Of a stretch of 64,000 bases of DNA, positions 12,201 to 63,858 are shown in pieces (within the stretch, counting starts at the first letter, position 1; every line of letters begins with the position of its first letter). Location of the stretch: positions 29,474,628 through 29,538,627 of the forward strand of contig NC_088305.1 of the NCBI RefSeq assembly GCF_032854445.1. Reading direction: 5' to 3'. The notes beneath the pieces were generated by a model, which saw nothing but the letters and a program-made list of their open reading frames with translations, did no database searches and was not told the origin of the DNA. Both the position numbers and the translations under genes were made by a program. This DNA is from Liolophura sinensis (Eukaryota; Mollusca; Polyplacophora; Chitonida; Chitonidae).

Positions 12201-15200
12201 CACTGAGACAAATGACTGAAGGCAAGTAAGCCGCCCCGCCCGAGACATTATACTGATACGGGTCAACCAGTTGTTGCACTATCCCCTTCATGTTGAACGC
12301 CAGGTAAGGAAGCTATAAGTTCCTCATTTAAGGTCTTCGGTGCGACCCGACCTCGAAGCAGATGCTCTACGAACTGAGCCATCTGGGCAGATTACAAACA
12401 TTTTAGGTTACATGTACATGAGCATGTAATATGAGATTGTAAATGAGCTTAAATCTTATCTTTGTAGAGATGTCTGAACTGAAGTTACTATACTTCACTT
12501 TGTTTAACAGGATTTTTGTCAAGTGACACAAGTCGCTTGACTATGATCGCCACACCCACAATCTTGGCACACCCACAATATAGGGCCACTTAGGAGTTTT
12601 TATTATTTCTTACCTGCAAAAAATTTAAGGTTGGCATCAAAAGTGTTATTTAAAGCCTCGGCTTGCTCCAGAAAGTGCTTATTTACAGGCAAAAAATTTT
12701 GGTGAAAAGCAGTACTTTTACAGTGCCTGATCTTTTTCATAGCAACTTTTCAAATACATATATGTCATGCTGGCTTCCACTCTGGCTGCAAGTAGGAAGG
12801 TCTGCCAGCAACCTGCAAATGGTTGTGGGTTTCCGCCGGGCTCTGCCCGGTTTCCTCCCACCATAATGCTGGCCACCATCGTATAAGTGAAATATTTTTG
12901 AGTGCAGCCTAAAACACCGATCAAATAAATAAACAAATCATACATATATGCATTCCCCTTCTACTGTTGAGAAAGCCAAGGCAGCGTGAGTTGGATTTAA
13001 ACACACACCTCACTGGTTAAGGGCTTTTAATATTCAACAAACAGGTGCTTTATACTAACACGATATAAAATAAGAATTCTTGTCCTTTAATATGAGAGAA
13101 AATTTGAAAGATTGCATGTCTTACCTGATACATTTAAAGTGACGGAATGTGCTGGCTGCTTTCTGACACTCCAGGCATAACTGAATGGCCCCAGCATAAT
13201 CTTCCTCCTGATGGAACAGATTCAGAAGCAACCATGGTATTCCAAGATACTACATTTGGTATGTTACAATAGGTTAACAAAGTAAACTCACTATACATTC
13301 AAATAGCGGTTTATGTTGCAACAGTTCATGAAGAGGCTGATATCTTTTGCAAAAGCAAAACAAGTGCACAAATTTGACTGAAACCTTGTTCAAGCTTATT
13401 TTTTCTTTTTAGGGTCTCTTTGGCTCAGTTGGTTAGCGTGCTAGCGCAGCGTAATGACCCAGGAGCCTCTCAACAAAGCAGTCACTATAAGTCCTGCTCA
13501 TGCTGGCTTCCTCTCCGGACGCACATGGGAAGGCCTGTAAGCAATCTGCAGCTAGTCGTGGGTTTTCCCCGGCCTCTGCTCAGTTTCTTCCCACCACAAT
13601 GTAGTCCGCCGTTGTATAAGTGAAATATTCTTGAGTACGGCGTAAAGCACCAATCACATACAGAAATAAATAAAGTTCATAAATAAATAAATGGCCATCA
13701 AGGCTGTATCACTACAGATTATACCAAAAGAACTATTTTAAAACTAACCTATTTGATTTGTGTTGGCAACATTGTAATCAAAAATTCTTTATGCTTAAAC
13801 TGGCTGTCAGGTTTAGGGGTGCATGCACCAGATAGGTAAAAACCTCTGACATACAGGTAGGTACAAAAGTTCATTCCTCCCTTCTTTACAGTGTACTTAT
13901 TTCCAACATACCTCTAACATCTCCCGTAGCCTAATTTCTGTGCTTTGCTGAAAATAAAACAAAATGAATGCTATTGAAAATCTCAAGGTACACATGCACA
14001 TGTTAACTTTATACAGATAATACACTACAATTCACTGCTAGGATGTAAGGAGCAAACTGGCCCCAGTGAACATTACCTTTAGGTAATATACAATAAAGGT
14101 CAGAATAATGGCTGGAGAAAACCACAGCCGATCAGATTAATGGCTGGAGAAAAGCATATAAGGTAAAGTGAAAGGCTGGAGAAAACCAACAAAGGCCAAG
14201 TTAATGGCTGAATGAAGCCAATGAAGGCCAGTGTTTTGATCGGCTGAAACCAAAGAAGGCCAGGTGTATGGCTGGAGAAAACCAACAAAGGCCAGGTTAA
14301 AAGCTGAATGAAACCAATGAAGGTCAGGTTATTGGCTTAATGAAACCAAAGCAGGCCAGGTTAATGGCTGTAGAAACCAACAAAAGCCAGGTTAACAACT
14401 GGATGAAACCAACAAAGCCAGGTTTATGGCTGGATGAAATCAACAAAGCCAGGTTTATGGCTGGATGAAATCAACAAAGGCCAGGTCAATGGCTGAATGA
14501 AACCAATGCGGCGAGATTACTGGTTGGATGAAAGCAACAAAGGCCAGGTTATTGGCTGGTTGAAATCAACAAAGGCCAGGTTATTGGTTGGATGAAACCA
14601 ACGAAGACAAGGTTAACAGCTGAATGAAAAAAACGAAGGCCAGGGTAATGGGTGAACGAAACCAACAAAGTCAGGTTAATAACTGGATGAAACCACCGAA
14701 GGTCAGGCTGCTATCTGGATGAAAGCAACGAAGGTCAGGTCAATGGCTAGATGAAATCAATGAAGGCCAGTTTATTGGCAGGATGAAATCAATGAAGGCC
14801 AAAGTATTGGTTGGCAGAAACCAACGAAGGCCAAGTTAATGGCTGAACAAAACCAACAAATACCAGGTCATCAGATGCATGAAATCAGCGAAGACCACAT
14901 TAATGGCAAGAGAAAACTAACGAAGGCCCGAGTTAATGGCTGGATGAAACCAACAAAGCCAGGTCAATGGATGGAGAAGACCAACGCAAGCCAGATTAAT
15001 GGCTGAATGAAACCAATGAAGGCATGGTTCTTGGCTGGGTGAATCCAAAGAAGACCAGGTTAATGGCTGGAGAAAACCAAGGAACCCAGGTTAAAAGCTG
15101 AATGAAACAAATGGAGGCCAGGTAGAAGGCTGAATGAAACAAATGAAAGCCAGGTTATTGGTTGGATGAATCTAACAAAGGCCGGGTAAATGGCTGGAAA

Positions 15201-18200
15201 AACCAAAGCAGCCTGGTTTATGGCTGAACAAAAGCAACAAAGGTCAGGTAAATGGCTGGAGAAAACTAATGAAGGCCAAGTTAAAACTGAACCAAGCCAA
15301 TGAAAGCCAGGTTAGTGGCTGGATAAAACCAACAAAACCAGGTTACGAGCTTGATGAAATCAAGGAAGACCAGGTTAATGGTTGGAGAAAAACAACAAAG
15401 GCCAGGTTAATTCCTGAAGAAAAACAACAAACACCAGGTTAATGGCTGAATGAAACCAACCAGGTTAATGGCTGAATGAAACCAACCACGTTAATTGCTG
15501 GATGAAATGAACAAAGACCAGGAGAATGGCTGAATGAAACAAATGAAGGCCAGGTAAATGGCTGGAAAAAACCAACGAAGGCCAGGTTATCAGCTGAATG
15601 AAATCAACAAAGGCCATGTTAATGGTTAGAGAAAACTAACGAAGGCCCGAGTTAATGGCTGGATGAAACCAACAAAGCCAGGTCAATGGTTGGAGAAAAC
15701 CAACAATGGCCAGGTTATCACCAGAATGAAACCAGGGAAGGCCACGTTAATGGCTAGAGAAAACTAATGAAGGCCCGTGTTACTGCATGGATGAAACCAA
15801 CGAAGCCAGGTAAATGGCTGGAGAAAAACAACGAAGGTCAGGTTAATTGCTGGAGAAAAACAGCAAAGGCCAGACTGATGGCTGAATGAAACCAATGCAG
15901 GCCAGGTTATTGGCTAGATGTAACCAAAGAAGGCCAGGTTTATGGCTGGAGAAAACCAACGAAGGCCACACAGAAATTATATTCGCTTATAATGAATTCG
16001 GGCTGTTTCTTGTTTTTTTTGACGCAAAGGGCACTTTGAGGGAACGGCAGCGTCCACTAATCTGACGCTGAGAAGGGCTGGATTAGGCCCTGTGGCTGGA
16101 TGAAATCTACGAAGGCCAGATAATTGGTTGGATGAAACCAATGAAGGCCAGTTATTGGTTGGATGAAATCAACGAAGACCTGGTTATTGGTCGGATGAAA
16201 GCAACTGAGGAATTACATTTTGTCCACAAAATTTTTAACACTAATAAATTTTTAACAATATTTCTACATATTTCACGAAAATCTCACAGTGCCTTCCAGA
16301 ATAGTACATAACAACAATTACAAGCACTGTGCACTATTTACCAGTGTTTTGATGGTCCTGAGGGACTTGAGTAGACCTTGTAGTTGCTGCCTTTTTCTGT
16401 AGTTAGCCAACAATCCCAAACTGGCTGTGGTAAAACCGGTCTTAGCCCTGTCTAAATGTCTGCAAACAAGGATAATATCACAGATACTAACGCCAGGAAC
16501 CGTTTTCACGAAACTTCCTGAGTTCAGCAAATTGCTGAAGTCCATGTTGGTATTTTTTGTCCAAGTCTCCCTTGGTCTGTTTCTCCAAAAAAGTCAAACA
16601 CTACCAAAGAATACTATTATGTTTCAGCAAAACAAATTTGCTTCAGTAAAAAAAACCTGAGACGTTTCACGAAACCTGGCTTTATATTACAGTAACAGCT
16701 AAAACATAGCTGCAAAACAAAGCTAGTGTGCAGGTGTTAAAACTGTTTACTGCAACACCCGTCAGTTTTATCACTCTGTTTGTAACTATGAGTGGAATAC
16801 ACATTTAAATTACACAAAAACAAACCTCATATCTGCAACATATGGACGGAGAGGAGAAGTTACAAAAATCTCCTGTCTAAAATATGCAACTTCTGAGACA
16901 CCATGTCTAACAGAAGACACTGTCCCACATTCCTCTTTGTCCCCCACACCCCTTCACGTCTTACCTGCGCCCGTTAGCACAAATGACACTGGCACTTTGT
17001 AGAGCCTTTTGTAACTCCATCACCCTCTGAAGCTCTGTGTTATAGGCAGGATGGTTCTGTAGCACTAACTCTGACACCTTTTTAGAGACCTGGATAAAGA
17101 GTGTTCAGGAACAGTAAATTAGTATGAATTTATTCATACAATACAGCTTCATGTATCATATGTCATGTAATACAACACAGCTATTTCTATATCAAAATTT
17201 ACATTTGCTCCGGGTAGTCCAGTTTCTCCACTCATAAAGCTGACCGCTATCATTTAAAAGGTAAGACTGTTCTATTGATGAATGGAAGAAGAAAGGTACC
17301 CTGTCCAGCACAACATGTGTTAATTCATATACCATGCATGAATTTTCTCAGATCTTCAAATAATCCTAAAGCTCATTCACAAATGACGTGGTCTTCTGAG
17401 CAGTAGATGTCAACTGGAGTTTTGTGAAGTCATAGTAGTGTCAAATGGTGAGTGAGTGAGTGAGTGCTTGGGGTTAAACTTAACAGGTTTTCAGTCATAT
17501 GACGACGCAGGAGTCATTAGAGTCTATGTAATGTGCCTCCTTGTTGCAGGACGGATTTCCATCGCTCTTTCATCAAGTGCTGCTTCACTGAGGCAACTTA
17601 CCAAAGGCAAGTAACCGCCCCACCCGAGCCAATATATTGATACAGGTCAAATAGTCGTTGCACTATCTCCTTCATGCTGAATACCAAGCTAGAAAGTTAC
17701 AACTTCCTCTTTTTAAGGTTTTAGGCGTGACCCAACCCAGGATTGACCCTGGATCTAACACCTCCCAAAGCGCACGCTCTACCAACTGCGCTATCGGGGC
17801 AGGTAGTGTCGAATGGGGTGCCAGGAATTTGTACTCAAATGACCAAACATTTTGTTTTTTTTGCACTAAATTGTACTACATGGCCTTTGAATTGCCCAAG
17901 AAACTTAATATATATCTTTGTGATAACGGTTTGTACAAACTATGTACCCATGTAGCATACTAGCAATTTTCGCCAGAAATGTGTGTGCTCTGGAATGTAA
18001 GTGGAAATTTCTTGAGCATGATATTAAGCACGAATCAAATAAGCAAATTTTAAAACATTAATACACATCAGGAAATTATGCAGCCTAAAATATACAAGTA
18101 CATTTCACAGGTAATTAATTGAAAAAAAAGGTCGCAAAATAACATAATTTTCCAAGAACAAATAAAACAAAAACAAGTTAAGAAACAAAACTGGAACAAT

Positions 18201-33152: not shown

Positions 33153-36100
33153 TAATTGATATAATAACCAGATGGATATTTCTAATAAAACTATGAAACA
33201 AAAATCATCCATTCACATATGTAGGCCTACAGGTCATGGTGCTCATGCTTGTAACAATCGCACTATATTGAGAGCCAGAGTACAAGAAGTGTGGAATCCC
33301 CAGGTGAACTATCAGCTTTTTATGATCCGACGATCGACTACAGTGAACATGTTTAGTCAGTTTCTGTATCCATGACAACGAAAAACTATGCGAACACTAT
33401 ATCAAACCCATCAGAAAAAAATCGTTCAGAATCATTCGTCCTTTTATCTTGGGTTAAACAGACTGCATGGTTGTAATGTATAGTATAAGCACGGTACTCT
33501 CCCCTTCTTGACCTACTTTTCCGTTTCCGTTAATAGGTTCACACGAAGGTGTTCTTACGGATGACTTTCCGTAAAGTGGGTCAGGTGGACACCGTCTCGG
33601 AAACCTTCAATGCTGACGTCATTATTCAGGCACGGTGGCTGAACGACGATAGGTTGTTCGACACCAAAACGGACGTATGTATAGTTGGAACTAGGCAAGC
33701 CAATTTTGAAGAGCTTCATGACGTTAGAAGTTGATTTTTACATAGAACAATCTAGAAGAACTCGTTAGCCCTGTTCCGTATAATATTTGCAAGAGGTTTA
33801 AGTAGAGTCTTGAAATATTGAGAACGTTTTTCTTTATATATGGCCAATAATGTATGTGCTTCAAAAAGTTAAAACCGTCAAGAGTGTCCAAATTTATTTA
33901 AAGGAAAGTTGATATCAAAGGTTGACGAGGTAGATCGAGGTAGACGAAGTATTCATACATTTCAAAAAGTTTTGTCATATAGAGCAGATCTTTCCAGTAG
34001 CTCACAATCTGGCAGACTTGCGTTTCTTATCATTTGCTCTGGAGGTGGAATAAGAATTTTTCCAAAAGCTTGGAGATTCCCACCAACAACGTCTTTGTCG
34101 TTATTTGTGCCATACAACTCCATTTTAATATACACCGTAGACCAGAGTAAGTTCTGAGACAAAACGGAATATTCTCAGTTATTAGGCCTAAGACGGTCTG
34201 CAATAAATCCGCCTGCTTATATGTTGGGGGCTGTATCTGCCAGAATGTGTGTAAGCTTGGGGTTTAACGTCGTACGTAACATGCCGCCAATGTGCATCAC
34301 CACTGAAGTAACATGCCGAAGACACAAAACAGCCAGTTTCATTATACTGAGACCAACAAGTACCATTTAAAAAGTCTTTGAGATGACCCGACATGAGTTT
34401 GATCCCGGGTCTCCCGACTTGGAGGCGGAAGCTCTAACCGTTAGGCCACCCAAGCGGTCCCTCGCTGACACAGAAAAGTAATCTAAACATGTCCTCTTCA
34501 ACAGTCTTTGGGAACGATGAGGGTGGAATGGAGTCCAATGTTGTACATAGAAAACACGGACAGTAATATTACGAAAGTACAGGGAAGGGAGCTATGGACC
34601 AGCCCGACCACTGGGGAGGATTACGTCATCGAAAGGCTAACGGCCAGGGGGACATTCACAGAAACCATGGAGCTGGACTATTTCCCCTTCGACTGCCAGG
34701 TGAGGATTTCAAGCCGTAGTACTGGTTTGTTGTATTGTTTAAATATCAGCTGTTGTTTCAGAACATGACCCAGAGGAATCATTGGCACACGAAACCGCTA
34801 TGTTGTCCGAATTCCACTTCCACATACGATTTCCACATTTCAAATTATCCCGTGGCCTCCGTGGCCGAGGTGGTTATATATAGCGCGCCAGCGCGGCGGA
34901 ATTATGATGACCCAGGGGTCTTCACCAAAGGCGGTCGCTGTGAGTTCAAGTCCAAGTTGTCTTCCTCACCGACCACACGAGGGAAAGTCAACCAGCGACC
35001 TGAGGATGGTCGCGGATTTCCCCCAGGCTCTGTCCTCTCACCATATATACGATGTAAAACACTAACCAAACAAATAAATAAATATTATTCCCTCATTTCA
35101 CAGAACTTGACGGTGACAGTGGCGTCCGAGCGGTCGTCAGAGGAGATAACTCTGTCACCTGACCCTCTGGATCCCAGTTATCTCCACCAGGGAAATTTCG
35201 TCGATAAACAGGTCTGCAGCCATTTCTAATTCGAGCTTCAACTATTTTTCTATTATTCTCACCCATGTGTCAGTGTCATATTAAAGTTCCTTTAATAATT
35301 CTTATGTAACGTTTTGTATATTGGGATTTTGGAGTAAAAAAATCATTGTGAGATAGACTCAGGGATTTCTTTTTCGGATCGATGAAATAATTATTTAGAA
35401 AGCAATGTTTGTGTCAATCTATTTATATAGGTCATTTGTGTGATTTAGTGTGGATGGTCAATTGGGCGATCCAGCATGGATGGTTAGTTGGGCGATCCAG
35501 TGCGGATTGACAGTTGAGCGACCCAGAGTGGATGGTCAATTGGATGATCCAGCCTGGTTGACAGTTGGGCGATCCAGCGTGAATGGTCAATTGGCCGATC
35601 CAGTGTGGGTGGTCAACTGGGCGATCCAGTGTGGGTGGCCAATTGGGCGACCCAGCGTGGATGGTCAACTGGGTGATCCAGCGTGGGTGGTCAATTGGGC
35701 GATCCAGCGTGGATGGTCAATTGGGCGATCCAGCGTGGATGGTCATTTGGGCGATCCAGGTTGGATGGTCATTTGGGCGATCCAGCATGGATGGTCAATT
35801 GGGTGATCAAGCATGGATGGTCAGTTGGTTGATTTAGCGTGGATGGTCAATTGGGCGATCCCGTACGGGGGTCAATTGGGCGATCCAGCATGGATGGTTA
35901 GTTGGGCGATCCAGTGCGGATTGTCAGTTGAGCGATCCAGTGTGGATGGTCAATTGGATGATCCAGTGTGGGTGGTCAACTGGGCGATCCAGCGTGGATG
36001 GTCAATTGGGCGATCCAGTGTGGGTGGGCAATTGGGTGACCCAGCGTGGATGGTCATTTGGGCGATCTAGTGTGGATGGTCAATTGGGCGATCCAGCATG

Positions 36101-39100
36101 GATGGTCAGTTGGGCGATCCAGCATGGATGGTCAATTGGGCGATCCAGCATGGATGGTCAGTTGGGTGATCCAGCGTGGATGGTCAGTTGGGCGATCCAG
36201 TGTGGATGGTCAATTGGGCGATCCAGCATGGATGGTCAGTTGGGCGATCTAGCATGGATGGTCAGTTGGGTGATCCAGTGTGGATGGTCAGTTGGGCGAT
36301 CCAGTGTGGATGGTCAATTGGACGATCCAGAAGGGATGGAAATGCCGAATAAGAATCGTTATATGACTGAAATGACACGTGGGTTTCTGGAAGCTGACTT
36401 TGCCAAATTGGGTTCATCATATTTGAAGAGCCACGTGGGTTTCCGGATCTTGACCGTGCCGAAATGGGTTTATGTTGAAAGTTCCAGATAGGTTTTCAAG
36501 CCTTGTTCTTGCAGAATGTTTCTGGAATCACTTGTTTGGATTTCATAAAATGGATTTTTCAAATGAGTTTCCAGGTGGTGGATTTTGATAACGAATATCT
36601 CTGCGCTGCTTTCCGTTATCACAAGATTCTCCCCAAAACAGATTAGCCAATTAGTTTTTATTTGGATGCATGGTAAATATAAATTAGTGTTTATAGATTA
36701 CGCTTCTTGGTGACGGATTTGCCATTTGAATTTCTGACTGGCACATTGTCCAGTATGTTTACTGGTTGTGGATTTAGAGAACAGGTTTACGCGCTGTATT
36801 AGCAACCACGATGATTATGTTTTTCATACGTTTTAGTGGTAACATAGTTATGTGTTGGCCCGTATCGGTAGATTTCTTCTGATGCAAAAAACACAAATTC
36901 ACGAAAAAGTTTTTTCACCAATATTTAGACATTTGATGAATCTCTAAATAATTAAATCTGTCTATCCATTTCTACGTCATCTAATCAACTGAAAGCCTTT
37001 CTTTTCCAATTACTATATTTCACCTAAACCTTATCATTTTTCTAGAGACATTTTGCTTGATACTGACTGATCCATTCATATTACAGAGCCACTAGAGTTT
37101 TTTTTTCAAGTTTTATTAATTTCATGTCAGAAAAACATATTATTCATAAAAGTATTATTTAAGGTCTTTATGTTCTTTTGAAAACGAATTTTTACCAAAA
37201 TTAAGCTGAAATACAGTAACTTAGATCCTGTTTTATATCGGCCTTGCCTTTTTGTTGCCAGGAGTGGCACCTCTTCGAACACGTGGACACTCACGAGCCG
37301 GAAGGGTACGAGTCTGACATTGTCACCACCTTGACTCGTAGACCCGCCCTCTCCTTCACTTGTCAGGCGGCCCGTAAGCTCGGCTACTTCACATGGAACG
37401 TGTTCCTTCTCTTGGTAAATGTAAACAGTTTTTGTGATCCAGTTAGAGGGTGATAAGAAAGATCCAGTGATGATCCAGACTGGAGCAAATAATAGGCCAA
37501 ACTGGCAGGGTCAAACTATTGATTTAGTATTTTTAATCAATATTTAGTATTGATTTAAGTATTAGTATTGATTTAAGTATTTTTAAATGAAAAAAACCCC
37601 TCATAAAGTGGACTAATCATCATATTAGATCAAAGATTTGATTCTATAAGATCGATCATACTGATAGTGTAAGGCGCTGATGACGTCAGAAGCTTCTTTT
37701 TTTTTTTTTTGCATAATACGTGCATAACCACGTATTTATGGTGATGACCCCTTTTAGCTCGTATTAGCACACAAATGCAAAGGTAGAAAGTCGAGGGCAC
37801 CCAGCAATATAAATGGAGTGCTTGAAATCCACGGCTTGGAATCCAAGGGTTCACGTGTTGCTAATTTTACGAATGAACACTTAGAAAATGACTGATTAGA
37901 TTTCGTTTCAGACATTGTTTTTCCAATATCATGCACAGAATTTAGACTTTCTCTTTCCAATATGAAATCCAGAATATGATTTTTGTGCTTTGGGATAACA
38001 GGCCAAGAATGATGGAGTTTTCGGTACCATAAGAAAAAAATGGCCTTTGTCTTTCCTCTCTGATATCCTAAACACAGACTTTACCGATTCATGTATTATG
38101 TCAAGAACACCGATGTATTTTTGGTAATGGCTTTGAAAAAAGTTATTAATGCAAATGACATCCCGTCGAGGAAGTGAAAGAAAAAAAAAGGATTAGAGAT
38201 GTTGGGTAGCCACACTGAGAACTAAAAATTTATGTAAGCTTTTTGAAAATTCTGTCCTTTTCATGCATACATGTAGACAAGTTTGCATATGACTCTTCCC
38301 AGACGAGTTTGTTTCATTGTTTGTTACAGAAGTTTTGTTTCCAGTTTCATACAGACGACTTTTTTGGTATTGTATCTTTCAGGCGATAATATTCCTTATG
38401 CACATGTGTTCCTTCTCGGTGGCGAAGACAGCCTATAACGCCAGGCTGAGCTCCTCCTTCACCATGTTCCTAACAGCCATTGCCTTCAAAGTGGCACTGA
38501 ACCAATACCTACCGAGGATATCCTATCTCACTTATATGGTATGTACCATCAGTTATCTCCGATAAAATTTCATACATTGTACTTAAATGAGGATGTCCTA
38601 TCTCGCTTACATGGTATGTACCATCAGTTATTTTCAGAGAAAAATACTTCATCATTGAACATGCTGTGGACATTCTATTTCACAATTATAGTATGTACAT
38701 GAGTTATCTCAGAAGTACTTCGAACATTATACCTAATGAAGATACCTTATCTCACCTGTATGATGTATAGGTGATAATACTTCATCAGATAATGGTCCAT
38801 CATGTCACGTATTGGGGATACCCGATCTCACATGTGAGGTGTGTAGCATCAGTTATGTCAGATAATACTTCATCAGATAATGGTCCAACATGTCACGTAT
38901 TGGGGATATCTGATCTCACATGTGTGGTGTGTACCATTAGTTATGTCAGATAATACTTCATCACATAATGGTCCATCAGGTCACGTATTGGGGATATCCG
39001 ATCTCACATGTGTGGTGTGTAGCATCAGTTATGTCAGATAATACTTCATCACATAATGGTCCATCATGTCACGTATTGGGGATATCCGATCTCACATGTG

Positions 39101-42100
39101 TGGTGTGTACCATTAATTATGTCAGATAATACTTCATCAGATAATGGTCCATCATGTCACGTATTGGGGATACCCGATCTCACATGTGTGGTGTGTACCA
39201 TTAGTTATGTCAGATAATACTTCATCAGATAATGGTCCATCAGGTCACGTATTGGGGATGGCCGATCTCATGTGTGTGGTGTGTACCATTAGTTATGTCA
39301 GATAATACTTCATCACATAATAGTCCATCATGTCACGTATTGGGGATACCCGATCTCACATGTGTGGTGTGTACCATTAGTTATGGCAGATAATACTTCA
39401 TCACATAATGGTCCATCATGTCACGTATTGGGGATACCCGATCTCACATGTGTGGTGTGTACCATTAGTTATGGCAGATAATACTTCATCACATAATAGT
39501 CCATCATGTCACGTATTGGGGATACCCGATCTCACATGTGTGGTGTGTACCATCAGTTATGTCAGATAATACTTCATCAGATAATGGTCCATCAGGTCAC
39601 GTATTGGGGATACCCGATCTCACATGTGTGGTGTGTACCATTAGTTATGTCCGATAATACTTCATCAGATAATGGTCCATCAGATCACGTATTGGGGATA
39701 CCCGATCTCACATGTGTGGTGTGTACCATCAGTTATGTCAGATAATACTTCATCACATAATGGTCCATCAGGTCACGTATTGGGGATACCCGATCTCACA
39801 TGTGTGGTGTGTACCATCAGTTATGTCAGATAATACTTCATCAGATAATGGTCCATCATGTCACGTATTGGGGATACCCGATCTCACATGTGAGGTATGT
39901 ACCATTAGTTATGTCAGATAATACTTCATCAGATAATGGTCCATCAGGTCACGTATTGGGGATGGCCGATCTCATGTGTGTGGTCTGTACCATTAGTTAT
40001 GTCCGATAATACTTCATCACATAATGGTCCATCATGTCACGTATTGGGGATACCCGATCTCACATGTGTGGTGTGTACCATTAGTTATGTCAGATAATAC
40101 TTCATCACATAATGGTCCATCATGTCACGTATTGGGGATACCCGATCTCACATGTGTGGTGTGCACCATCAGTTATGTCAGATAATACATCATCAGATAA
40201 TGGTCCATCATGTCACGTATTGGGGATACCCGATCTCACATGTGTGGTCTGTACCATTAGTTATGTCAGATAATACTTCATCAGATAATGGTCCATCATG
40301 TCACGTATTGGGGATACCCGATCTCACATGTGTGGTGTGTACCATCAGTTATGTCAGATAATACTTTATCAGATAATGGTCCATCATGTCACGTATTGGG
40401 GATACCCGATCTCACATGTGTGGTGTGTACCATTAGTTATGTCAGATAATACTTCATCAGATAATGGTCCATCATGTCACGTATTGGGGATACCCGATCT
40501 CACATGTGTGGTGTGTACCATTAGTTATGTCATATAATACTTTATCAGATAATGGTCCATCATGTCACGTATTGGGGATACCCGATCTCACGTGTGTGGT
40601 GTGTACCATCAGTTATGTCAGATAACACTTAATCATTTCACGTACTGAGAATATCTTATCTCACGCGTGTGGTATATGTACTGCAGGTTATCTCAGATAA
40701 TACGCCATTTTATGTAGGGAGGATATTATATTTCACTCATATGTTAAGTACCGCCGATTGTCTCAGACAGTACCTCGGGCATTTTACAAATGCCTAAGAT
40801 ATCCTCCAGCATCGAAATGGTGTATATGCAGAGTTAGTTGTCTAAGATAATTTTTCAGACAATACACTTATCAAGAATATCCTATCTCACCGGCATACGT
40901 TGTATACCATCAGTTATGTTAAGTAATGCGTGAAGTCATAATGACATAAATACCCTAATCTCAGTTGACTGTAATTATAATATCAGGTACCTCAATCAGT
41001 GCGTGAACCCACAAGCATTACCCGGTACATAATTACATTCCTATTTCTCTTGAGGTGACTTAGGAGATATTTTGATAGCCTACGTACATATTCATGACGA
41101 TAAAATTTATCCCCTTACGAGTAACCTGGCTATCCCATTTACACATCTGAAGTGAATCTTTATTAAATTTAGTTACTGTGATATTGCTACAGGTCTATAT
41201 TGGAACCATATAATTTAATATTGTGAGAAGCCAATCCCTGAAGAAGTTCAATCTTGCATGGAATACAAAAATTTGAATGCACAAACTTTATAAAATTTTA
41301 TTTAAGTAGTTTTGATATTTATAAATTTGATGTAAAGGCGTGTTTTAACGGTTTCATCGTGTGTTCGCTTTCCTTTACAACAATCAACTTATGCCATATG
41401 TAACCACCCAGTTGGCTACCGTACTCATTGAACAGTGAGTTCACGAGTGAAAGACGACATTCAGATATGAAATACCGGTATATATTTATTTTGTTCCATT
41501 AGCGTTTTACGTCGTACTCAAGAATATTTCACGCAGCCAGCGTTATGATGGAAGGAAACGGACTGGGAAACCCACGATCGCCCGCAGGTTGCTGAGAGAC
41601 CTTCCCACGTACGACTGGGTAGGAAGCCAGCATGAGCAAAGATGGTATAAGATTAATAGATCATGATACTATGTATGACATACGACCACGTGTTTCCTCT
41701 CCAGGACTCGTACCTGCTCATCCAGCTGGTCCTGATGGCTTTCGTGTGTGGATGGCATGCAACTGTCTCTCACCTGTCCACCTCAGAGTTGACCGAACAG
41801 ATCATGGTTATCATCGTGAGCGTCTTCTACGTCGTCTTCCAGGTCGTTTTCATCGCTGTCGTCTATTTCATCGTAAGTGGACACATATGTAATAAGAGTT
41901 GGACATGTATAGAATTCTATATCACTTGTCTATATATGTGTAATTAAAGAATAAATACCGAAATCCCAGAGTAGCTTCTGTCTCTGATTTTGTTTACAAA
42001 TAGATTCCAGTGATGTTGAGGATGACTCTAAAATTACCTGCTAAACTTGAAAAAACAAATGCGAGTTAAGATTTTACATCGCTTAAATTTATCCCGTTTT

Positions 42101-44225: not shown

Positions 44226-44905
44226 ATGACAGCCCCATTGGCAGCATTGTGGCAGATAGCCTATTTAGCGTTGAAGAATGGCCAGTTACAGTTGTATTAC
44301 GATGGAAGCGCTATATTCCTGTTAAAGGACGACCAGTTGCCGTCGTATTATGATGGAAGGCCTATTTGTCTGTATGGGAGGACCCTCTCATGACCGCTAT
44401 TGCGACAGAAGGCTAGCTATGTCTATAACGTTGAAAGGTAGCCCCATTACGGGAGAAGGCCTATGTCTGTAGCGTTGAAAGACGGTCAGTTACCCTCATA
44501 TTAAGGCGAAAAGCTTAGTTTCCTGTTGAAGGGCCACCAGTTACCGTCGTATTACGATGGAAGGTCTATTTTTCTATATTGAAGGGCAGTCTCATTGCTG
44601 TCATTACTGCAGAACGCCTACCTTCCTGTTGAAGGACGGCCAATTGCCGTTGTATTACGATGGAAGGTCTATCTCTCTGTTGAAGCATGGTCCCTTTTCC
44701 GTCATATTACGATTGAAGACATATCTCCCTGTTGAAGGATGGCCCCATTACCGCTACATTACGATGGAAGGCCTATATCTCTGTTGAAGCATGGTTCCTT
44801 TTCCGTCATATTACGATTGAAGACATATCTCCCTGTTGAAGGATGGCCCCATTTTCGCCACATTACGATGGAAGGTCTATCTCTCTGATGAAGCACGGTC
44901 CCATT
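44226..44905. repeat. ~52-bp minisatellite, about 12-13 copies
   Basis: Imperfect array containing ATTACGATGGAAGGCCTAT, CTCTGTTGAAG and GATGGCCCCATTACCG; some units carry GACGGCCAGTTGCCGTCGTA instead. Diverged, with indels. Intergenic, downstream of the channel. Confidence 0.9.
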
Positions 44906-46726: not shown

Positions 46727-47050
46727 AGTACGTGAGGTATGTGTGATATTTGTGTTATCTGAAGTATGTGTGATATTTGTCACGTACGGTATGTGTGATA
46801 TTTGTGTCGCATGAGTTATGTGTGATATTTGTGCTGCGTGAGGTATGTGTGATGGTTGTGTTATGTGAGGTATGTGTAATATTTGTGTTACGTGAGGTAT
46901 GTGTGATATTTGTGTTGCATGAGGTTTGTGATATTTATGTTACGTAAGATATGTGTGATAATTGTGTTGCATGAGGTATGTTTGGTATTTGTGTTACGTG
47001 AGGTGTGATATTTGTGTTACGTGAGATATGTGTGATATTTGTGTTAAACT
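46727..47050. repeat. 27-bp minisatellite, about 12 copies
   Basis: Array of GTGAGGTATGTGTGATATTT then GTGTTAC, with point variants and deleted units. Intergenic between the channel and the UPF0047 gene. Confidence 0.95.
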
Positions 47051-49787: not shown

Positions 49788-52700
49788 CTGAAACAAGACA
49801 AATAAAATGTCAAATTGATCTAAAACAGGACTGACCTGAAAAGACAGTTCAGAGTGGGAAGGTCAGCTAACAGCCTGTGGATGGTCGTGGGTTTCCCCAG
49901 GGCTCTGCCTGGTTTCCTCCCACCGTCATGCTGGCCACCGTCGTGACATATTATTGAGTACGACGTAAAACACCAATCAAATAAATAAATAAATAAATAA
50001 ATATACAGTTCAGACACAAATGCAGATAAAAGCCGTTCAAGACAATGAGAAAATTGAATTTATGAAATTTCTGACTTTTTCAATAAATTTGCATTTTCTC
50101 ATTTAACTCTGTGATAATGAACTTTTTTTATACCTACATGTACCTTTATATGCCTTCATTCCTTATCAGGAGGTAAATACAAAATATAACTTAATTAAAA
50201 AAAAAAAAACTGAAATGGAAGTGTCTGCCTTTGTGCTCGATCTTTTCATATATATTTTGATAAAATATGAATGTTTAGACACATTTAGACGCATTCGTCT
50301 TAAGATAACATTGGTGAGGGGGGCAAAACTTCAATTCGCAAAGCCCAAAAATAAGTTTCAAGATGGTACTTCAAATTTCGGCCTAAATGAAAATAACACA
50401 TTTATGCAGACTATACCTTAAATGAAAGAGCTATACTTAAGGTTAAATAAAATATCTCAATTTTCTGCCAGCAGTGCTTGTTATTGGACTATTTAATAGT
50501 TAAACATCAAAGGCTTAGCAGTGTCCTTTAGGACACCATTATAACAGATTACACACGACATTGCGCTTAGCTTTGCCCAGTCACTAGCTCTTCAGGGCAT
50601 GGCATTCCAGACACATTTTGGCAGCCTACAGCCACAAATGTAGACATGATGTGGCCCTCCGGCACATCCCAAACTCTTCCTTCTCGAGTTGGCATTTACC
50701 TTAAAAGCCACAATTATCATGGCATATGAACAGATTCAGCTGAGACTGGAAATGCATATTAATCCCACAGTCGGAGTAAAAGTTCAAGCACAGTGACATC
50801 ACAATGAATACTCAAGAGAAGGAAAGGAGGCTTTTCATTGTACTAGTCTAAACCATGATAGGACCTTTAATGTGTCTCCAATCTGTGGATTTTACAGAAA
50901 ATAACAATGTTTAAATCTATTTTTCTCTCTCACCAAAAACATTAAAGAATTGAAAAAAACAAAAAAAACAACAACAGAATTTCACACAGTTTGTATAGCA
51001 TTTTCAATTAAGGTATAGTTTGTGTTAATGTATTTTCTTTGAAGACAGAAATAGTTTCAGGAATCAGCCCCTGGCTGTAAAACAGCTAGCAAGGACTGTA
51101 ATATCAGGATTAACAAGAAAGATCAGCAACTCTGATCATTGTGGCATTAGTATAGAGTGAGCAGATTTTATTTCTCCTTTTTTTCCCAACCCTTTGTTAT
51201 TAGGTGAATTATCAAAGAGTTACCAGAGTTGTCTGCCCTTACCTCCTCTATCTCTGTGCTCGCACAGCCAGAGACCTTGCCATGTGCCTAGATTGGCTTT
51301 ACCGTCTGTTATAGGTATCGTAACACTGCTGCCAAAAAATAGGGCCTTCAGGTGTGCAGGCTGTAATGAAAGTCAAGGAAAGACTTGTATCCACAAGAGA
51401 TTACAACCACAAAGATTGCTATATTTACAAGTAATTATTCTGAAATAGAACGTCTTAATGACTTTCAATACGTTGTGATTTGCAGTTGTGGTGGTTGATG
51501 TTGTGTCAAGAGCTACTCTGGTAAAACATCCAGATATCTTCCCAACATAGGCTTGTTTGCTTTGGATTTAATACACATATTCAACATTATTTATTAAGGC
51601 GGAGCCTCCTTGTAGCAAGCTGGTCTCCATGCTGACACATGTATAGTGCTGCCTCACTAGAATACCATGCCAAAGACACCAGACACGATGCCCCAGGCAG
51701 TCACATTTCCAGATTAACACAAGGAGACGACCAGTACTTTACCTATCCTGATATGGTGAAAACTGAAGGTGTATCAACTACATAAGACATAACAGTACTG
51801 CCAGCGGAAACCGCAACACGGCCAATGTAAATCAAAACACAGCCTAAGGAAACCATACTACAGCCAAAGGAGACCATATTACAGCCCAGGAAACCACAAA
51901 ACAGCCCAAGGAAACCACAACACAGCCCCAGGAAACCACATTCATAACAGTAAACTCAAGGAACCGCTATCACAGCCAAAGTAAACCACAACACCGTCTT
52001 ATGTTTGTTACTGGTCTCCCACCAATATGGTGTGTACGTCTGTATGTCACATGTGGGGAGGTTGTGAGAAACTTGCCATTTGTCAAGGTTTTTGGGTTAA
52101 TTAAGGCATTCCTGACATGAAACTGACTGCCATTCCATCAGCGAAAATCTCTTACAGCATTTAAGAAATGTCAAATAAAATAGATAAACATGAGACACTG
52201 CCAAGATATGACATGGACAGAAATAAATATGGTAACTAAATATCTGTATAAAATTAAATCATCTTACCATATCATCTGGTCCCTCACAGGAATGTTTAAA
52301 TGGAGTAGACTGAAAGAGATGAGAACATCAATGAACCAGATGGTGACTGTTGTGGAGGAATATTTGAAATGGTCAGAGAGAGCAGGTTCTGATACTCAAC
52401 ATAAACAAAGCATGCAAGTGCCCTGATGCCCTTTCAACACTCTCACTTAAGGTGACTTTAATATCATACAAGGCAAAGGCTTCCCGTATTTAATTTTTAG
52501 AGGGTAAAATGATATCTAGTACTTTAAATGAAATGTTCAATAAGCTATTTACCTCTGGTACAAGTTTATTCATGAACATCTCAGTATCGTCTCTGAAAAG
52601 AAAATGATTAGATTTATTTAAAGTCACCCAGTTCAATCTTCAGTCAAGCTTGAAAACAGGTGTCACATGTTTTCTTGACATACTGTTTTGGAGAATTAAG

Positions 52701-55226
52701 TTATACTTGTATTATCCATGTTATATGATACTGGACCATGGTTACTTGTATAAGGTTTCAGGGTCCCGTTTTACGAAGCACTCACAATTTACGCCTGGAG
52801 TAATACATCACCATGGTAACTCTGCTTCATGTTGTGACACCTATAGGTTTCAATAGGACAACAGGCAGACAAATGGTCTGCCAACAGACAAACATTTCAT
52901 TACCAGCTGGGAAATAAAGAGCAGTGCTCACGTGAAGTCATACAGAAATGGGTAGGCTTTATGAAGTCGACATCTAGAGAAAAAACTCAACTCACCTCAC
53001 AGAAGGATCCCAGTTCTGGGGGGATAAAAACAAAAAAATTTTAAAGTTTGACCATAAAGACATATTGAGTGAATTCTCAGTTATTATATCTTCACACTGA
53101 CCTGGGAGCTTGGCCATCATACTGTTCTTTTCTCAGTATAGACGAATCCAAAGCATAACATGGGAATAAGACAGGTGTGAGGCTCAGACTGATTTGGCTG
53201 TTCCATCTAACTGGGGGACCTGGCTCCTGGGCCTCAGTATTTGTTTTTATATGCATCTGATTGGTGTTTAGGGTCATACATGAAAATTTATCACTTTCAA
53301 AACTGAAGTCAGGCTGAGGGGTGAAGGAAAACTGCAGAGTCCGGAATGAATCAGAGAATGGCTAGGAAACTATTGCCTGGTAGCTAACAAGCCATCTGAC
53401 AGAAACAATGTATTTAAGGTACTAAATTTTATTTAGAGTGAATACTGTACTCAAACATTTTTCTTTTGTATAATCAGCCGCACAATTTAAGGAGAATGGT
53501 TACATGTGCAAAGACCCCTCCCCCCCAGATGTACAAAGATCCCCTGAATGTACAAAGATCCCTTGGATGTACAAAGATCCCCCTGACGTACAATGATTCC
53601 CCTGACGTACAATGATCCCCCGGATGTACAATGATACTCCAGATGTACAAAGATCCTGTGGATGTACAAAGATCCCCCAGATGTACAAAGATCCCCTTAA
53701 TATACAAAGATCTCCCGGATGTACAAAGATCCCCTGGATGTACAAAGATCCCAGGATGTACAAATCTCCACGGATGTACAAAGATCTCCCAGATGTACAA
53801 AAATCCCCTGAATATACAAAGATCTCCTGGATGTACAAAGACCCCCTTGATGTACAAAGATCCCCTGGATATACAAGATCCCAGGATGTACAAAACGGTA
53901 GGTCCACAGAAAATAATCTACATACACTAAACTTATCACCTGAAGTAATGTTAAGAAAAGTCTTTCCATGTACTATTTATTTATTTATTTGATTGGTGTA
54001 TTTCACTTATACGTAAACACAACTACTTAAAACTGATAAAATGCTTGGAATAATTGTACATGAGTATGAGCTTGAGATTTCCTACAAGCACAGACAATTA
54101 ACTGGAAGCACTCTTGCATGGAAGCATCACTAAATAATAACCCTTGCTGGTGGAGAAAAACCTCTGACCTCACAGATCAAGGTAAGTATGACGTTAAACC
54201 CCAAGCACTCACTCACTCAAAGATCAAGGTAAGTATGACGTTAAACCCCAAGCACTCACTCACTCAAAGATCAAGAACCAAATGGCTGCAAGAACCCAGG
54301 GGCCTATTCCACACAGCCAGTCGCAATTTGAGTCAAAATTTAAACCCTCAAAACACGGATTAGTTTTTTGTACTAGAAGGTGAAATTTCCCACATTTGTC
54401 TTAAGGTGAGGTTAAGGAAGTCAAAATTTTAATTTCTAGTGACCTAAAAAGAATACTGGCTTTATGGAATAGGCTCATGTGCCTTTATATTGACTGAAAG
54501 TGAAACTGTTAGGGGAGGTAATCACTTACCTCATTCAGGGCTATGCTGGCAGATGTATGTTTAACTGGAAAAAAAGGAATGAAGAAAACAAACATGAACA
54601 ATTGTATCAAATTAATCAAAACATTTAGTGTATGTTATAAATATGAGATAATATATCACTTAATCAATACACCATAACTGTACTGGCAACTGACAAGAAA
54701 ACGTATGTACATCTGTTCACTTCGTTGGTCGTTGGATCACAAGCAGTTACACCGTCTTAGGCCAACCTTAAAAATTCATTTATGTTGTCTGGATCAAAAT
54801 AGAACCTGGATGTCCGAAACACCCTCTTTCCCTCTGCAAACCCATTATTGCACAAAGTACCTGAACAGGAGTAATTATGAAAAAAATTACCAGATTTAAA
54901 TGAAACTTAAGCATGTTCAAGTTCAGATAATAGGAAAAATGCAAGGTAAGTTTGATCAAAATCGCTGTAACTGCGGGTGCACTGGAGGGTGGGGGGTGGT
55001 ATAAAACTAGGGTCAGTGGGTAAAAAACATGTATTAATACATGTTATATTAAAAGAACATGCATGGAATACTTACTAAGAACATGCATCAGTCCCACTTT
55101 GATATTCTTCATCTCTGGTGTATTTCTGTGAACCTCTTCACCTATGAGATGACATCCTCGTTTTTTGGGTGACAGCTGGATCTCTTTCTGATACCATACC
55201 GACCCCGTGTAAGCCTTACTGGCCAT
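49741..55226 (-). CDS. UPF0047 / YjbQ-family protein, complete, 150 aa
   Basis: Minus-strand exons 55076-55226, 54530-54564, 52996-53015, 52553-52592, 52268-52309, 51243-51360, 49741-49787; all AG/GT, phases join to 453 nt ending in TGA. Family hallmarks in order: SVWYQKEIQLSPKKRGCHLI (residues 9-28), IKVGLMHVLIKHTSASIALN (42-61), NWDPSVRDDTEMFMNKLVPE (63-82), KHSCEGPDDMPAHLKALFFG (87-106), VTIPITDGKANLGTWQGLWL (109-128), SRKIVVTIQG (137-146). Length equals the usual ~140 aa single-domain family. Conserved polar residues His53, His88, Glu91 and His99 likely form the pocket. Bacterial YjbQ has been linked to weak thiamine-phosphate synthase activity; the role in animals is not known to me. Start at ATG 55226 by homology, but the frame is open upstream to the acceptor, so an extended N-terminus is possible. 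Confidence 0.94.
49850..50005 (+). mobile_element. SINE-B, head truncated
   Basis: GTGGGAAGGTCAGCTAACAG, GGTCGTGGGTTTCCCCAGGG, CTCCCACCGTCATGCTGGCC, GAGTACGACGTAAAACACCA and (AAAT)n. In the last UPF0047 intron. Confidence 0.88.
50006..51242. other. Last UPF0047 intron, remainder
   Basis: AT-rich intron without recognised repeats or exons beyond the SINE-B copy at its left end. Confidence 0.45.
51243..51360 (-). CDS. UPF0047 coding exon 6 (118 nt)
   Basis: PAHLKALFFGSSVTIPITDG, then ANLGTWQGLWLCEHRDRG. Acceptor ATTACAG, donor GTAAGG. Confidence 0.95.
51590..51750 (-). mobile_element. SINE-C-like fragment
   Basis: CCATGCTGACACATGTATAG, TACCATGCCAAAGACACCAG, ACACGATGCCCCAGGCAGTC. A diverged internal piece of SINE-C. 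In UPF0047 intron 5. Confidence 0.5.
51805..51995. repeat. ~22-bp minisatellite, about 9 copies
   Basis: Array of AAGGAAACCACAACACAGCC with variants (CATACTACAGCCAAAGGAGA). In UPF0047 intron 5. Confidence 0.85.
52000..52185 (+). mobile_element. SINE-D fragment
   Basis: TATGTCACATGTGGGGAGGT, GAGAAACTTGCCATTTGTCA, GAAACTGACTGCCATTCCAT, then an A-rich tail. Matches the body of 43240-43420. In UPF0047 intron 5. Confidence 0.6.
52268..52309 (-). CDS. UPF0047 coding exon 5 (42 nt)
   Basis: STPFKHSCEGPDDM, containing the family's H-x(2)-EGPDDM motif. Acceptor CTTTCAG, donor GTAAGA. Confidence 0.94.
52553..52592 (-). CDS. UPF0047 coding exon 4 (40 nt)
   Basis: Completes Arg69, then DDTEMFMNKLVPE. 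Acceptor TTTTCAG, donor GTAAAT. Confidence 0.93.
52996..53015 (-). CDS. UPF0047 coding exon 3 (20-nt micro-exon)
   Basis: NWDPSV plus two bases of Arg69. Acceptor CCCCCCAG, donor GTGAGT. Essential: without it the conserved ExxxPxVR motif and the phase are both lost. Confidence 0.92.
53525..53895. repeat. 19-bp minisatellite, about 19-20 copies
   Basis: Array of GATGTACAAAGATCCCCTG with variants (GACGTACAATGATTCCCCT, AATATACAAAGATCTCC). In UPF0047 intron 2-3 next to the micro-exon. Produces overlapping shadow frames on both strands with a 19-residue period. Confidence 0.95.
53973..54012 (-). mobile_element. SINE-B tail fragment
   Basis: CTATTTATTTATTTATTTGA then TTGGTGTATTTCACTTATAC; the rest of the element is missing. 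Confidence 0.6.
54181..54270 (+). mobile_element. Tandemly duplicated SINE-A tail
   Basis: Two copies of a ~49-bp unit ending GTATGACGTTAAACCCCAAG, CACTCACTCACTCAAAGATC; AAGATCAAGG is also repeated. Looks like a SINE-A 3' end duplicated together with its flank. Confidence 0.8.
54298..54478. mobile_element. ~180-bp MITE-like element
   Basis: Ends are inverted: GGGGCCTATTCCACACA at the left, TTTATGGAATAGGCTC at the right. No reading frame inside. In the UPF0047 intron upstream of the micro-exon. Confidence 0.5.
54530..54564 (-). CDS. UPF0047 coding exon 2 (35 nt)
   Basis: Completes Ile51, then KHTSASIALNE, the most conserved motif of the family. Acceptor TTTTCCAG, donor GTAAGT. Confidence 0.93.
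55076..55226 (-). CDS. UPF0047 coding exon 1 (residues 1-50)
   Basis: MASKAYTGSVWYQKEIQLSP through IKVGLMHVL; donor GTAAGT. The exon itself extends to 55262 (acceptor TTCCAACAG) with twelve further in-frame codons (GRTSSLLTKNIV), either 5' UTR or coding. Confidence 0.92.
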
Positions 55227-62100: not shown

Positions 62101-62981
62101 GTTTCAGGTCTTCATAAAAAGTATAATTTTAATCAGTCCACACAGAAAATTGCCTTCGGTATATGCTTGAATAAACACCTTTCAAACATGCAAAATGGTT
62201 GAAGAATTACCGTAACTCTGCTAATAATCAATTCCTATCAAAATCTTTGTTCTCTTTCTCCAGATCCCGTTACATTTGCGGACGAACTGGGACAGTTTTC
62301 TGATGGAGATGCTTATGTTGGCTGGACTGGGGGTGTACTTCCTCAACTTCCTGGCTGGGAAGAGCAAGAATCACAAGTTAGCACAAGCCTGGCTGACCTC
62401 ACACAGAGAGCTGCTGGACAGCAACTTCTCACTGGTTGGTAAGTATGCCAAAACATCGGAAATCTTGAGATATTGGAAATTAAACTTGAAGAAGAATTCC
62501 TGCTGTTAAATGGTGAAAGGCTTATCTACGTAAATTGGTGCATAGCATCTATTGTATGCTTGATATCTAGATTTAAAGTTGAGTAAAACACTAAAATAAA
62601 TTATATATCAGATGAAAGGCGTGATTTAAATAGTCGTGTCAAGATGCTGTAACAGAAACCACTGTCACTACTGATGTCAAGTGATGACAGTGTGCTAATG
62701 TCGGATAGAACGATATGACAGTGGCCTCAAACTCCGGTAGTTGTCATAGAAGTCTGCATGAAATGCACATGTAATGTCAGTTGCTTTTCTTGGCAGGCGA
62801 TGACGGTACCTCTACAGAGGCACAGCCCGGCGTCCTCATGAAGGAGTCTGACAACGTGTACGCACTATGGTGTAGTGGTCGCACCTGCGTGGAGGGAATG
62901 CTGGTTGAACTCAAACTGCTCAAGCGACAAGATCTCGTCAACACCATTTCTCGGATATTCAAACCAGCCTCCGATCAAATT
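59053..62981 (+). CDS. CCDC47 / calumin, ER membrane protein; 5' part, 5 coding exons
   Basis: Exons 59053-59179, 59683-59786, 60822-60938, 62264-62438, 62797-62981; all AG/GT and phase-consistent, 236 codons. CCDC47 is a single-pass ER protein of the PAT chaperone complex at the multipass translocon and also affects ER calcium. Residues 1-20 (MKWVWFVALVLALTCVSLSH) are a signal peptide. Residues ~25-115 form an extremely Asp/Glu-rich luminal region (EFAEFEEFDE, DDEEFEGFDKE). A transmembrane segment is at ~128-148 (EMLMLAGLGVYFLNFLAGK). The cytosolic part starts with AQAWLTSHRELLDSNFSLVG, GDDGTSTEA, YALWCSGRTCVEGMLVELK and LLKRQDLVNTISRI, matching vertebrate CCDC47 closely. The rest (~250 of ~480 residues, including the C-terminal basic coiled coil) is right of the window. 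Confidence 0.96.
59420..59515. mobile_element. Degraded SINE 3'-end fragment
   Basis: CTGAAATATTGCCGATGTGG, CGTTAAGCCATTATCATTCA, TTCATTC. Resembles the shared SINE 3' core (GGCGTTAA) with an (ATTC)n tail. In CCDC47 intron 1. Confidence 0.4.
59683..59786 (+). CDS. CCDC47 coding exon 2 (residues 43-77)
   Basis: DEPDDTVTDDRTEHTLPDGA, then MDTDVDEDDATVE: acidic and unconserved, as in other CCDC47 proteins. Acceptor TTGTTTAG, donor GTGAGT. Confidence 0.9.
59866..59965 (+). mobile_element. SINE-B head fragment
   Basis: GGCCGCCATGGCTCAGGTGG, TTAGCTCAGTGCGGTGCAAT and TTTGAGCTCAGAAGGC: the tRNA-like head only. In CCDC47 intron 2. Confidence 0.6.
59966..60821. other. CCDC47 intron 2 remainder
   Basis: AT-rich intronic DNA; no exon or repeat recognised. 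Confidence 0.45.
60822..60938 (+). CDS. CCDC47 coding exon 3 (residues 78-116)
   Basis: DEDDEFDHFTDDEEFEGFDK, then a Lys/Pro-rich linker ending PPDLKITK. DDEEFEGF is shared with vertebrate CCDC47. Donor GTAAGA. Confidence 0.93.
60985..61265 (+). mobile_element. SINE-C, plus orientation, with tRNA-like head
   Basis: Head CTGGTGGATAGAGCATTTGC (box A) and TGGGATCAAACCCGTGTAG (box B); body TGGCGCTTAGAACTGAGAGG, GGCAGCATGGACTCGCCCTG; 3' end GTCATATCATATGACTGAAA and GATGTAAAAACCCAAGCAT. In CCDC47 intron 3. Confidence 0.85.
61336..61494. mobile_element. ~160-bp MITE-like inverted-repeat element
   Basis: Left TTGCCAGTTGTTCAAAAGTG, TATT; right AATACACTTTTGAACAACCG, GCC: near-perfect inverted ends of ~20 bp, with weaker complementarity extending inward (CTTAAGCTCGG). 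Transcript could fold into a hairpin. In CCDC47 intron 3. Confidence 0.7.
61495..62263. other. CCDC47 intron 3 remainder
   Basis: 61540-61640 faintly resembles SINE-D (GGCAATGGTTTACTCTAGGC). A T-rich run lies at 61730-61765. Otherwise nothing. Confidence 0.4.
62264..62438 (+). CDS. CCDC47 coding exon 4 (transmembrane segment)
   Basis: IPLHLRTNWDSFLMEMLMLA, GLGVYFLNFLAGKSKNHKLA and QAWLTSHRELLDSNFSLVG. Acceptor TTTCTCCAG, donor GTAAGT. Ends one base into a codon. Confidence 0.97.
62797..62981 (+). CDS. CCDC47 coding exon 5 (last visible)
   Basis: GDDGTSTEAQPGVL, NVYALWCSGRTCVEGMLVEL, RQDLVNTISRIFKPASDQI; donor GTGAGT, phase 0. No further exon is seen before 64000. Confidence 0.97.
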
Positions 62982-63474
62982 GTGAGTACAGATACAACTG
63001 GGCCAATCCCAGGTCATTTTTCACGTTAGATTTTTATGTATAAATTGAGGATTTTGCTACTTCACCATCTTGGCTCTTTGTCAGTACATGCATTTATAAT
63101 ATATGTTGCCTGGGTGTGGGCTCACGTATGGTGTCTTTGACATGAAATTTCAGTTCAACAGCACTGTAAATATTTTGGCATTGGTACAAGAAGACACCCC
63201 TGTGATTTTTTTCCCCAAAATAACTGACCAAAAGGACTTGTTGCTCTATCTGTGGCCAGGAATTGAGGGGTAATATTATGGGAAAATTTTTAGCTGCTGA
63301 CCTGTGTTTTCGCTTGGTTTTATGTTGCATTGGCTACTTTTGTATTTCTGTCTGAAAGTATCTGTAACGATGTGTGGTGGTTTCTACCACAGTTTTCTAT
63401 TTAAATTCCTTCAAACAGTTCAAATTCCTTACCTTATGTATTAGTTTCATAAAGTGCAGTTGTTTGCAACCCAT
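62982..63474. other. CCDC47 intron 5 sequence
   Basis: No exon or repeat recognised. Confidence 0.45.
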
Positions 63475-63609: not shown

Positions 63610-63858
63610 AAAATCATTATTTTTTGATTGGTGTTTTACACCATACCCAACAATATTTCACTTATACGATGGTGGCCAGCGTTGTGGTGGGAGGAAACCC
63701 CCAACCATCCGCAGGTTGCTTTCAGACCTTCCCACTTATGACCGGAAAGGAAGCCAGCATAAACTGGACTTGAACTCACAGAGACCGCATTGGTGAGAGG
63801 CTCCTGGGTCATTACGTTGCGGGCTAACCAACTGAGCCACAGAGGCCTCGGCTGCCAT
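63610..63858 (-). mobile_element. SINE-B, full length, reverse orientation
   Basis: Left TTTTTGATTGGTGTTTTACA; right end on its sense strand GTGGCTCAGTTGGTTAGCCC (box A) followed by AATGACCCAGGAGCCTCTCA. The best reverse-strand copy in the window. Confidence 0.9.

Follow-up and report, generated by a model that had tools for sequence, protein, structure and literature searches.

Host gene and layout of the array

The 64,000-nucleotide stretch of the chiton Liolophura sinensis genome analyzed here (contig NC_088305.1, positions 29,474,628 to 29,538,627 of the forward strand; "the window" in the following) represents one haplotype and contains a putative ion channel gene with a large minisatellite in one of its introns. 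Exon 6 (38383–38538, + strand; exon numbers were taken from a preliminary description of this DNA) follows the acceptor TTTCAG and encodes the M2 segment and the M2-M3 linker, with the protein end ...LPRISYLTYM. It terminates in ...TATATG|GTATGT, which places the GT of the 5′ splice site at 38539 (donor ATG|GTATGT). Intron 6 (38539–41704, + strand) ends with the acceptor CTCTCCAG|GACTCG directly 5′ of exon 7 (41705–41872, + strand), which by eye covers M3, a short loop and M4 and is followed by a donor-like ATC|GTAAGT. Joining of exons 6 and 7 results in the gap-free protein SYLTYM-DSYLL. A phmmer search of PDB with the joined exons aligned ELIC (E=1.3e-8) and also listed GABA receptor chains among its table rows. 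The Pfam ligand-binding-domain model gave a sub-threshold match to the channel (E=0.005). Because the joined exons match both ELIC and GABA receptor chains, the host gene is assigned, on the basis of its sequence, to the pentameric ligand-gated (Cys-loop type) ion channels, with an M3-M4 loop that is short by eye. Among viral contigs, neither relatives of the channel protein nor a match to the repeat-unit pattern were found.

Tandem Repeats Finder (TRF) reported an array at 38773–40635 with a period of 88, 21.2 copies and 95% matches. Alignment of the units extended it on both sides, and head-to-tail units run unbroken from 38514, where the array begins at the exon-intron boundary, to about 40948. 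Altogether about 29 units were counted, including the putative source. The latter, unit 0 (38514–38588, + strand), comprises 25 nt of the exon 6 end and 50 nt of intron 6 and thus spans the real 5′ splice site; apart from these 25 exonic bases, the entire array lies within intron 6. It is followed by three diverged 5′ edge units of 77, 72 and 76 bp (38589–38813, + strand; nhmmer and alignment), the first two with donor-like sites at 38614 and 38691 and the third devoid of the donor core. The homogenized center (38814–40646, + strand) consists of 20 full 88-bp units and a shortened one, all of which carry GT at the donor position of the register. At the 3′ edge, four diverged units of about 72–79 bp (40647–40948, + strand; nhmmer hits and alignment) fade out, and a doubtful further trace continues to about 41010. 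Units start at 38514, 38589, 38666, 38738 and 38814, then in 88-bp steps to 40574, and again at 40647, 40719, approx. 40796 and approx. 40873. The 20 full central units share a mean pairwise identity of 94.8% (minimum 87.5%), and these values, together with the shorter edge units, bear out the earlier impression of some 21 homogeneous central units between edges diverged in spacing and sequence. Open frames in the array are interrupted by stops and indicate no coding potential, and Rfam yielded no match at gathering scores.

The units resemble the exon 6/intron 6 junction

The 21 central units, and no others, were used to build a profile, which was run across the window with nhmmer. It matched the exon 6/intron 6 junction at 38509–38573 with E=1.3e-10, ahead of every decayed edge unit (40632, 3e-10; 38588, 4e-8; 38730, 4e-6; 40865, 4e-5; 38651, 0.014; 40707, 0.27). 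Outside the array and its edges, the profile found nothing better than E=1.9 in the window. Local alignment of the junction with the central consensus scored 61, compared with 25 for the best of 6124 windows elsewhere on both strands. The junction and the first copy (38589–38631) are identical at 40 of 43 bases without a gap (93%, E=2.7e-13, BLAST), and over the whole unit 63 of 73 aligned bases of unit 0 and the first copy agree. When the units were tested against mononucleotide shuffles, none of 500 reached the observed score in any of the eight pairings, that of unit 0 and the first copy among them. The homology enters the exon at GAGGAT (38514), corresponding to 25 exonic nucleotides in the unit, and attempts to extend it further upstream in the exon aligned nothing convincing. 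BLAST comparison of ten exon boundaries of the channel gene, as placed in our analysis (those at 33537 and 33675 are uncertain), revealed tandem relatives for the exon 6/intron 6 boundary only. The preliminary description had proposed that the unit contains the last ~24 nt of exon 6 together with its 5′ splice site and that this likeness should exceed that of shuffled sequence. Both statements held, with one exonic nucleotide more, and they indicate that the units and the exon-intron junction descend from one sequence.

Some mobile elements carry tandem repeats, and copies of a repeat resembling a short interspersed element (SINE) are frequent in the window. A dispersed repeat or a transposon-borne satellite might thus have landed in the intron and resemble the exon by convergence. 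We give this virtually no credence, since the likeness spans the exon-intron junction in a single register and continues through the edge units, and no second copy lies elsewhere in the 64 kb.

Shared descent leaves two directions. Unit 0 might simply be the first unit of a pre-existing array, with the exon end lying inside it; the donor would then have shifted into that first unit, extending exon 6, and the last codons of the exon would be derived from the satellite. Yet exactly these codons encode the M2-M3 linker and align without a gap to bacterial ELIC (LPRISYLTYMD / LPRLPYTTYID, phmmer), which would make the exon end far older than any minisatellite could stay recognizable. An array that preceded the exon was rejected on the strength of this conserved channel protein and retains scarcely any credence. 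Conservation of the exon end as a channel segment that aligns to ELIC without a gap marks the exon as the source: judged from sequence, the direction is from exon to array, with the exon as the older form and the array as its derivative. The seed is still attached to the array and under coding constraint, and it provides a built-in outgroup.

Growth history of the array

The edge units on both sides point to an ancestral period of about 75 bp. The 88-bp unit of the center holds an internal near-duplication (CAGATAATACTTCAT / CAGATAATGGTCCAT), in which 12 of 15 bases agree and which was equaled in 2 of 2000 shuffles. A maximum-likelihood tree was calculated from 29 rows, a faint row at 40936 having been excluded beforehand. 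The central units formed one clade (support 92/91, unstarred), and several edge units were long-branched, as for an interior that evolves in concert while its edges are excluded. The central units c5 and c13, which lie eight units apart, grouped together (94/98) and share a common variant, as would be expected from unequal exchange or duplication of several units at once. At the 28 columns in which the exon differs from the central consensus, central units carry the exon base in 0–2 cases and the eight edge units in 6–14.

These data fit an order of events in which duplications came early and one variant was amplified later. Such an order, with short duplications first, had been suggested before, and the ~75-bp edge period and the single 88-bp central clade support it. 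Very probably, the array is a mirage-type minisatellite, the name for tandemly repeated exon-intron boundaries, and arose when a ~75-bp segment that includes the exon 6 end and the adjoining 5′ splice site was duplicated. Its first copies may have been made by replication slippage or unequal exchange. A variant with the internal near-duplication would then have been amplified to fill the center, which was presumably homogenized later by unequal exchange or gene conversion, and the array would be a functionless mutational by-product. Growth from a 75-bp start through an internal duplication to an amplified 88-bp form is therewith largely readable.

Several observations weigh against this interpretation. 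The exon-side bases alone scored 22 against the central consensus, and the best chance window reached 25 (3062 40-nt windows, + strand), so that the exon side by itself is not significant; the intron-side bases scored 40. The case for the origin is thus carried by the intron side and the bridging first copy, and for the exon side by the first copy and the common register. About 7 of the 28 exon bases would be expected of unrelated sequence, and the 6–14 found in edge units support an intermediate state weakly. In the first copy, the head (40/43) is nearer to the exon than the tail (23/30), for which a single duplication offers no simple account; possible causes are local gene conversion and a constraint acting on the head. 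Finally, a unit phylogeny including the exon, put forward as a check in the preliminary description, answered in part: it recovered the central clade, but it left the order of the edge units unsettled: 21 of its 25 inner branches stayed open, no branch earned a star and the bootstrap had yet to settle.

Repeated donor-like sites and splicing

Donor strength was scored with a donor table known from the literature. Both the real donor and that of the first copy scored 7.08 and the commonest decoy 7.26, so by consensus the decoys are about as strong as the real site. Twenty sites with a score of at least 7.26 lie in the ~2.5-kb array, 18 of them in register, compared with 1.38 per kb outside. The earlier count of some twenty donor-like sites was therefore right. 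The accompanying claim that each unit keeps G|GTGTGT went too far: 17 of the 21 central units contain it and four do not. GT itself is retained at 23 of 23 register positions, a count over the 21 central units plus 5′ edge units one and two; the last 5′ edge unit and all 3′ edge units lie outside it. On the alignment, the in-register GT is gone by eye in at least three edge units, namely unit 38738 and those near 40719 and 40873.

Read-through of the real donor adds eight codons (VCTISYLR) before a stop. Because this stop is in frame, splicing from a decoy would place a stop codon between M2 and M3, and the resulting transcripts, truncated before M3, would be non-functional. The donor in use is probably the exon-proximal one at 38539, since it alone joins exon 7 in an open frame.

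The density of strong sites in the array, their scarcity outside, the retained GT and the in-frame stop that decoy use would meet could be read as signs of a functional decoy array, whose donors are kept to titrate U1 or to divert splicing to stop-bearing transcripts and thereby control the channel in a copy-number-dependent manner. Several results speak against such a role. Variation in the decoy 9-mer (6/180) matches that in the remainder of the unit (48/1580), which gives no hint that selection favors or removes it, and by eye the donor is missing from at least three edge units. Predicted U1 pairing of the commonest decoy is slightly weaker than that of the real donor (-4.2 vs -4.8). Central decoys are also predicted to be less accessible (median 1.3e-4 vs 9.8e-4 for the real donor; background median 1.2e-2), although this prediction is weak. 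Furthermore, splicing is reported as undisturbed by comparable arrays of lancelets (PMC3087553, PMC3902484). Overall, a selected decoy function merits very little credence. A looser version, in which copy number sets a low rate of decoy use and a length-variable array outside the lancelets tunes the amount of functional channel via stop-bearing transcripts ending before M3, is a long shot. The gene also offers a natural test of how the spliceosome selects a single donor from about twenty similar sites.

Even the real donor has a predicted accessibility below that of most GT sites, with values this low at 15% of 3319 background sites. It lies in a short inverted repeat (38536–38549, ATGGT-ATGT-ACCAT) that folds at -3.4 kcal/mol. 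Most central units carry the form GTGGT-GTGT-ACCAT, which folds at -3.7 kcal/mol. We claim no function for this element, as the edge units, examined by eye, fail to keep it and the predicted accessibility of the real donor is low.

Comparison with known boundary-derived arrays

Tandem arrays of exon-intron boundaries, termed mirages, have been described in the amphioxus Adh3 and globin genes (BflGb6, BflGb9) in PMC3087553, and PMC3902484 adds TnC and PGBD5. As features of a mirage we considered a unit homologous to an exon-intron boundary, head-to-tail copies, a concerted interior, allele length polymorphism, undisturbed splicing and a cephalochordate host. The unit of the intron 6 array shares homology with a real exon-intron boundary, exonic bases and splice site included, its copies are arranged in tandem, and the interior evolves in concert with the edges excluded. 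The array thus has those defining features of a mirage that are visible in a single sequence.

The closest parallel is BflGb6, for which PMC3087553 likewise gives a homogenized interior with cluster edges excluded from homogenization. It lists 3–6 units there, whereas about 29, source included, were found in the chiton intron. Unlike the amphioxus mirages, the intron 6 array amplified an 88-bp variant on a ~75-bp ancestral period and sits in a ligand-gated channel gene. The minisatellite of human IFI6 (6-16; Turri et al. 1995), as cited in PMC4526556, resembles it in that repeat units supply multiple splice donors, which in the chiton are candidate sites. It differs in that two downstream IFI6 units reportedly serve as donors and give isoforms, whereas use here would introduce a stop. 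Duplicated splice signals that could be recruited later are also a feature of the Rogers model of intron gain by tandem duplication of splice-site segments (PMC3087553; see also PMC2891723); in contrast to that model, no new intron or exon is evident in intron 6.

Passages of PMC2915984 and PMC3045353 contain no further precedent, and the literature searched holds no report of the intron 6 array itself, a negative that carries little weight. The preliminary description had regarded an exon-to-satellite conversion of this kind as unusual. Its observation is confirmed and the origin it proposed is supported; its rarity was overstated, in view of the amphioxus mirages and IFI6. The array adds a new example to a known kind; it is large, and its history can be read. 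Given a host that is no lancelet, seeding at boundaries would appear to be a general feature of how minisatellites start.

Base rate, other repeats and the downstream gene

Eleven large arrays with units of 18–104 bp, chosen from the TRF list, lie between positions 4 and 53894 and account for 9519 of the 64,000 bases, about 15% of the window. Their consensus sequences were searched at E≤0.01, a threshold at which short units may be missed. The intron 6 array alone matched a known exon boundary. Those at 14174–15968 and 44625–44905 matched their flanks, where related units extend past the TRF limits, and the remaining eight gave no consensus match at this threshold. From periods totaling ~480 bp and 10 boundaries per 64,000 bp, a hand estimate arrives at ~0.08 boundary-seeded arrays per window. 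At this expectation no special mechanism is needed, and a neutral origin suffices.

Two smaller repeats also carry donor-like sites. A 27/52-bp array at 46729–47046 has units with AGGTATGT (5 exact), and a 47-bp unit present in 2.3 copies at 54169–54275 contains the donor-like CAAG|GTAAGTATG and a CACTCACTCA tail. The dispersed SINE-like repeat gave 13 blastn rows including the query's own copy (41505–41653, 63693–63760, 13495–13646, 49853–49970 and others); one copy lies in intron 6 shortly 5′ of exon 7. Downstream of the channel gene, a third piece of a CCDC47-type gene at 60801 had no Pfam match, and two open frames at 62228–63029 on the + strand match CCDC47, a PAT complex subunit (PF07946, E=7e-15 and 1e-13).
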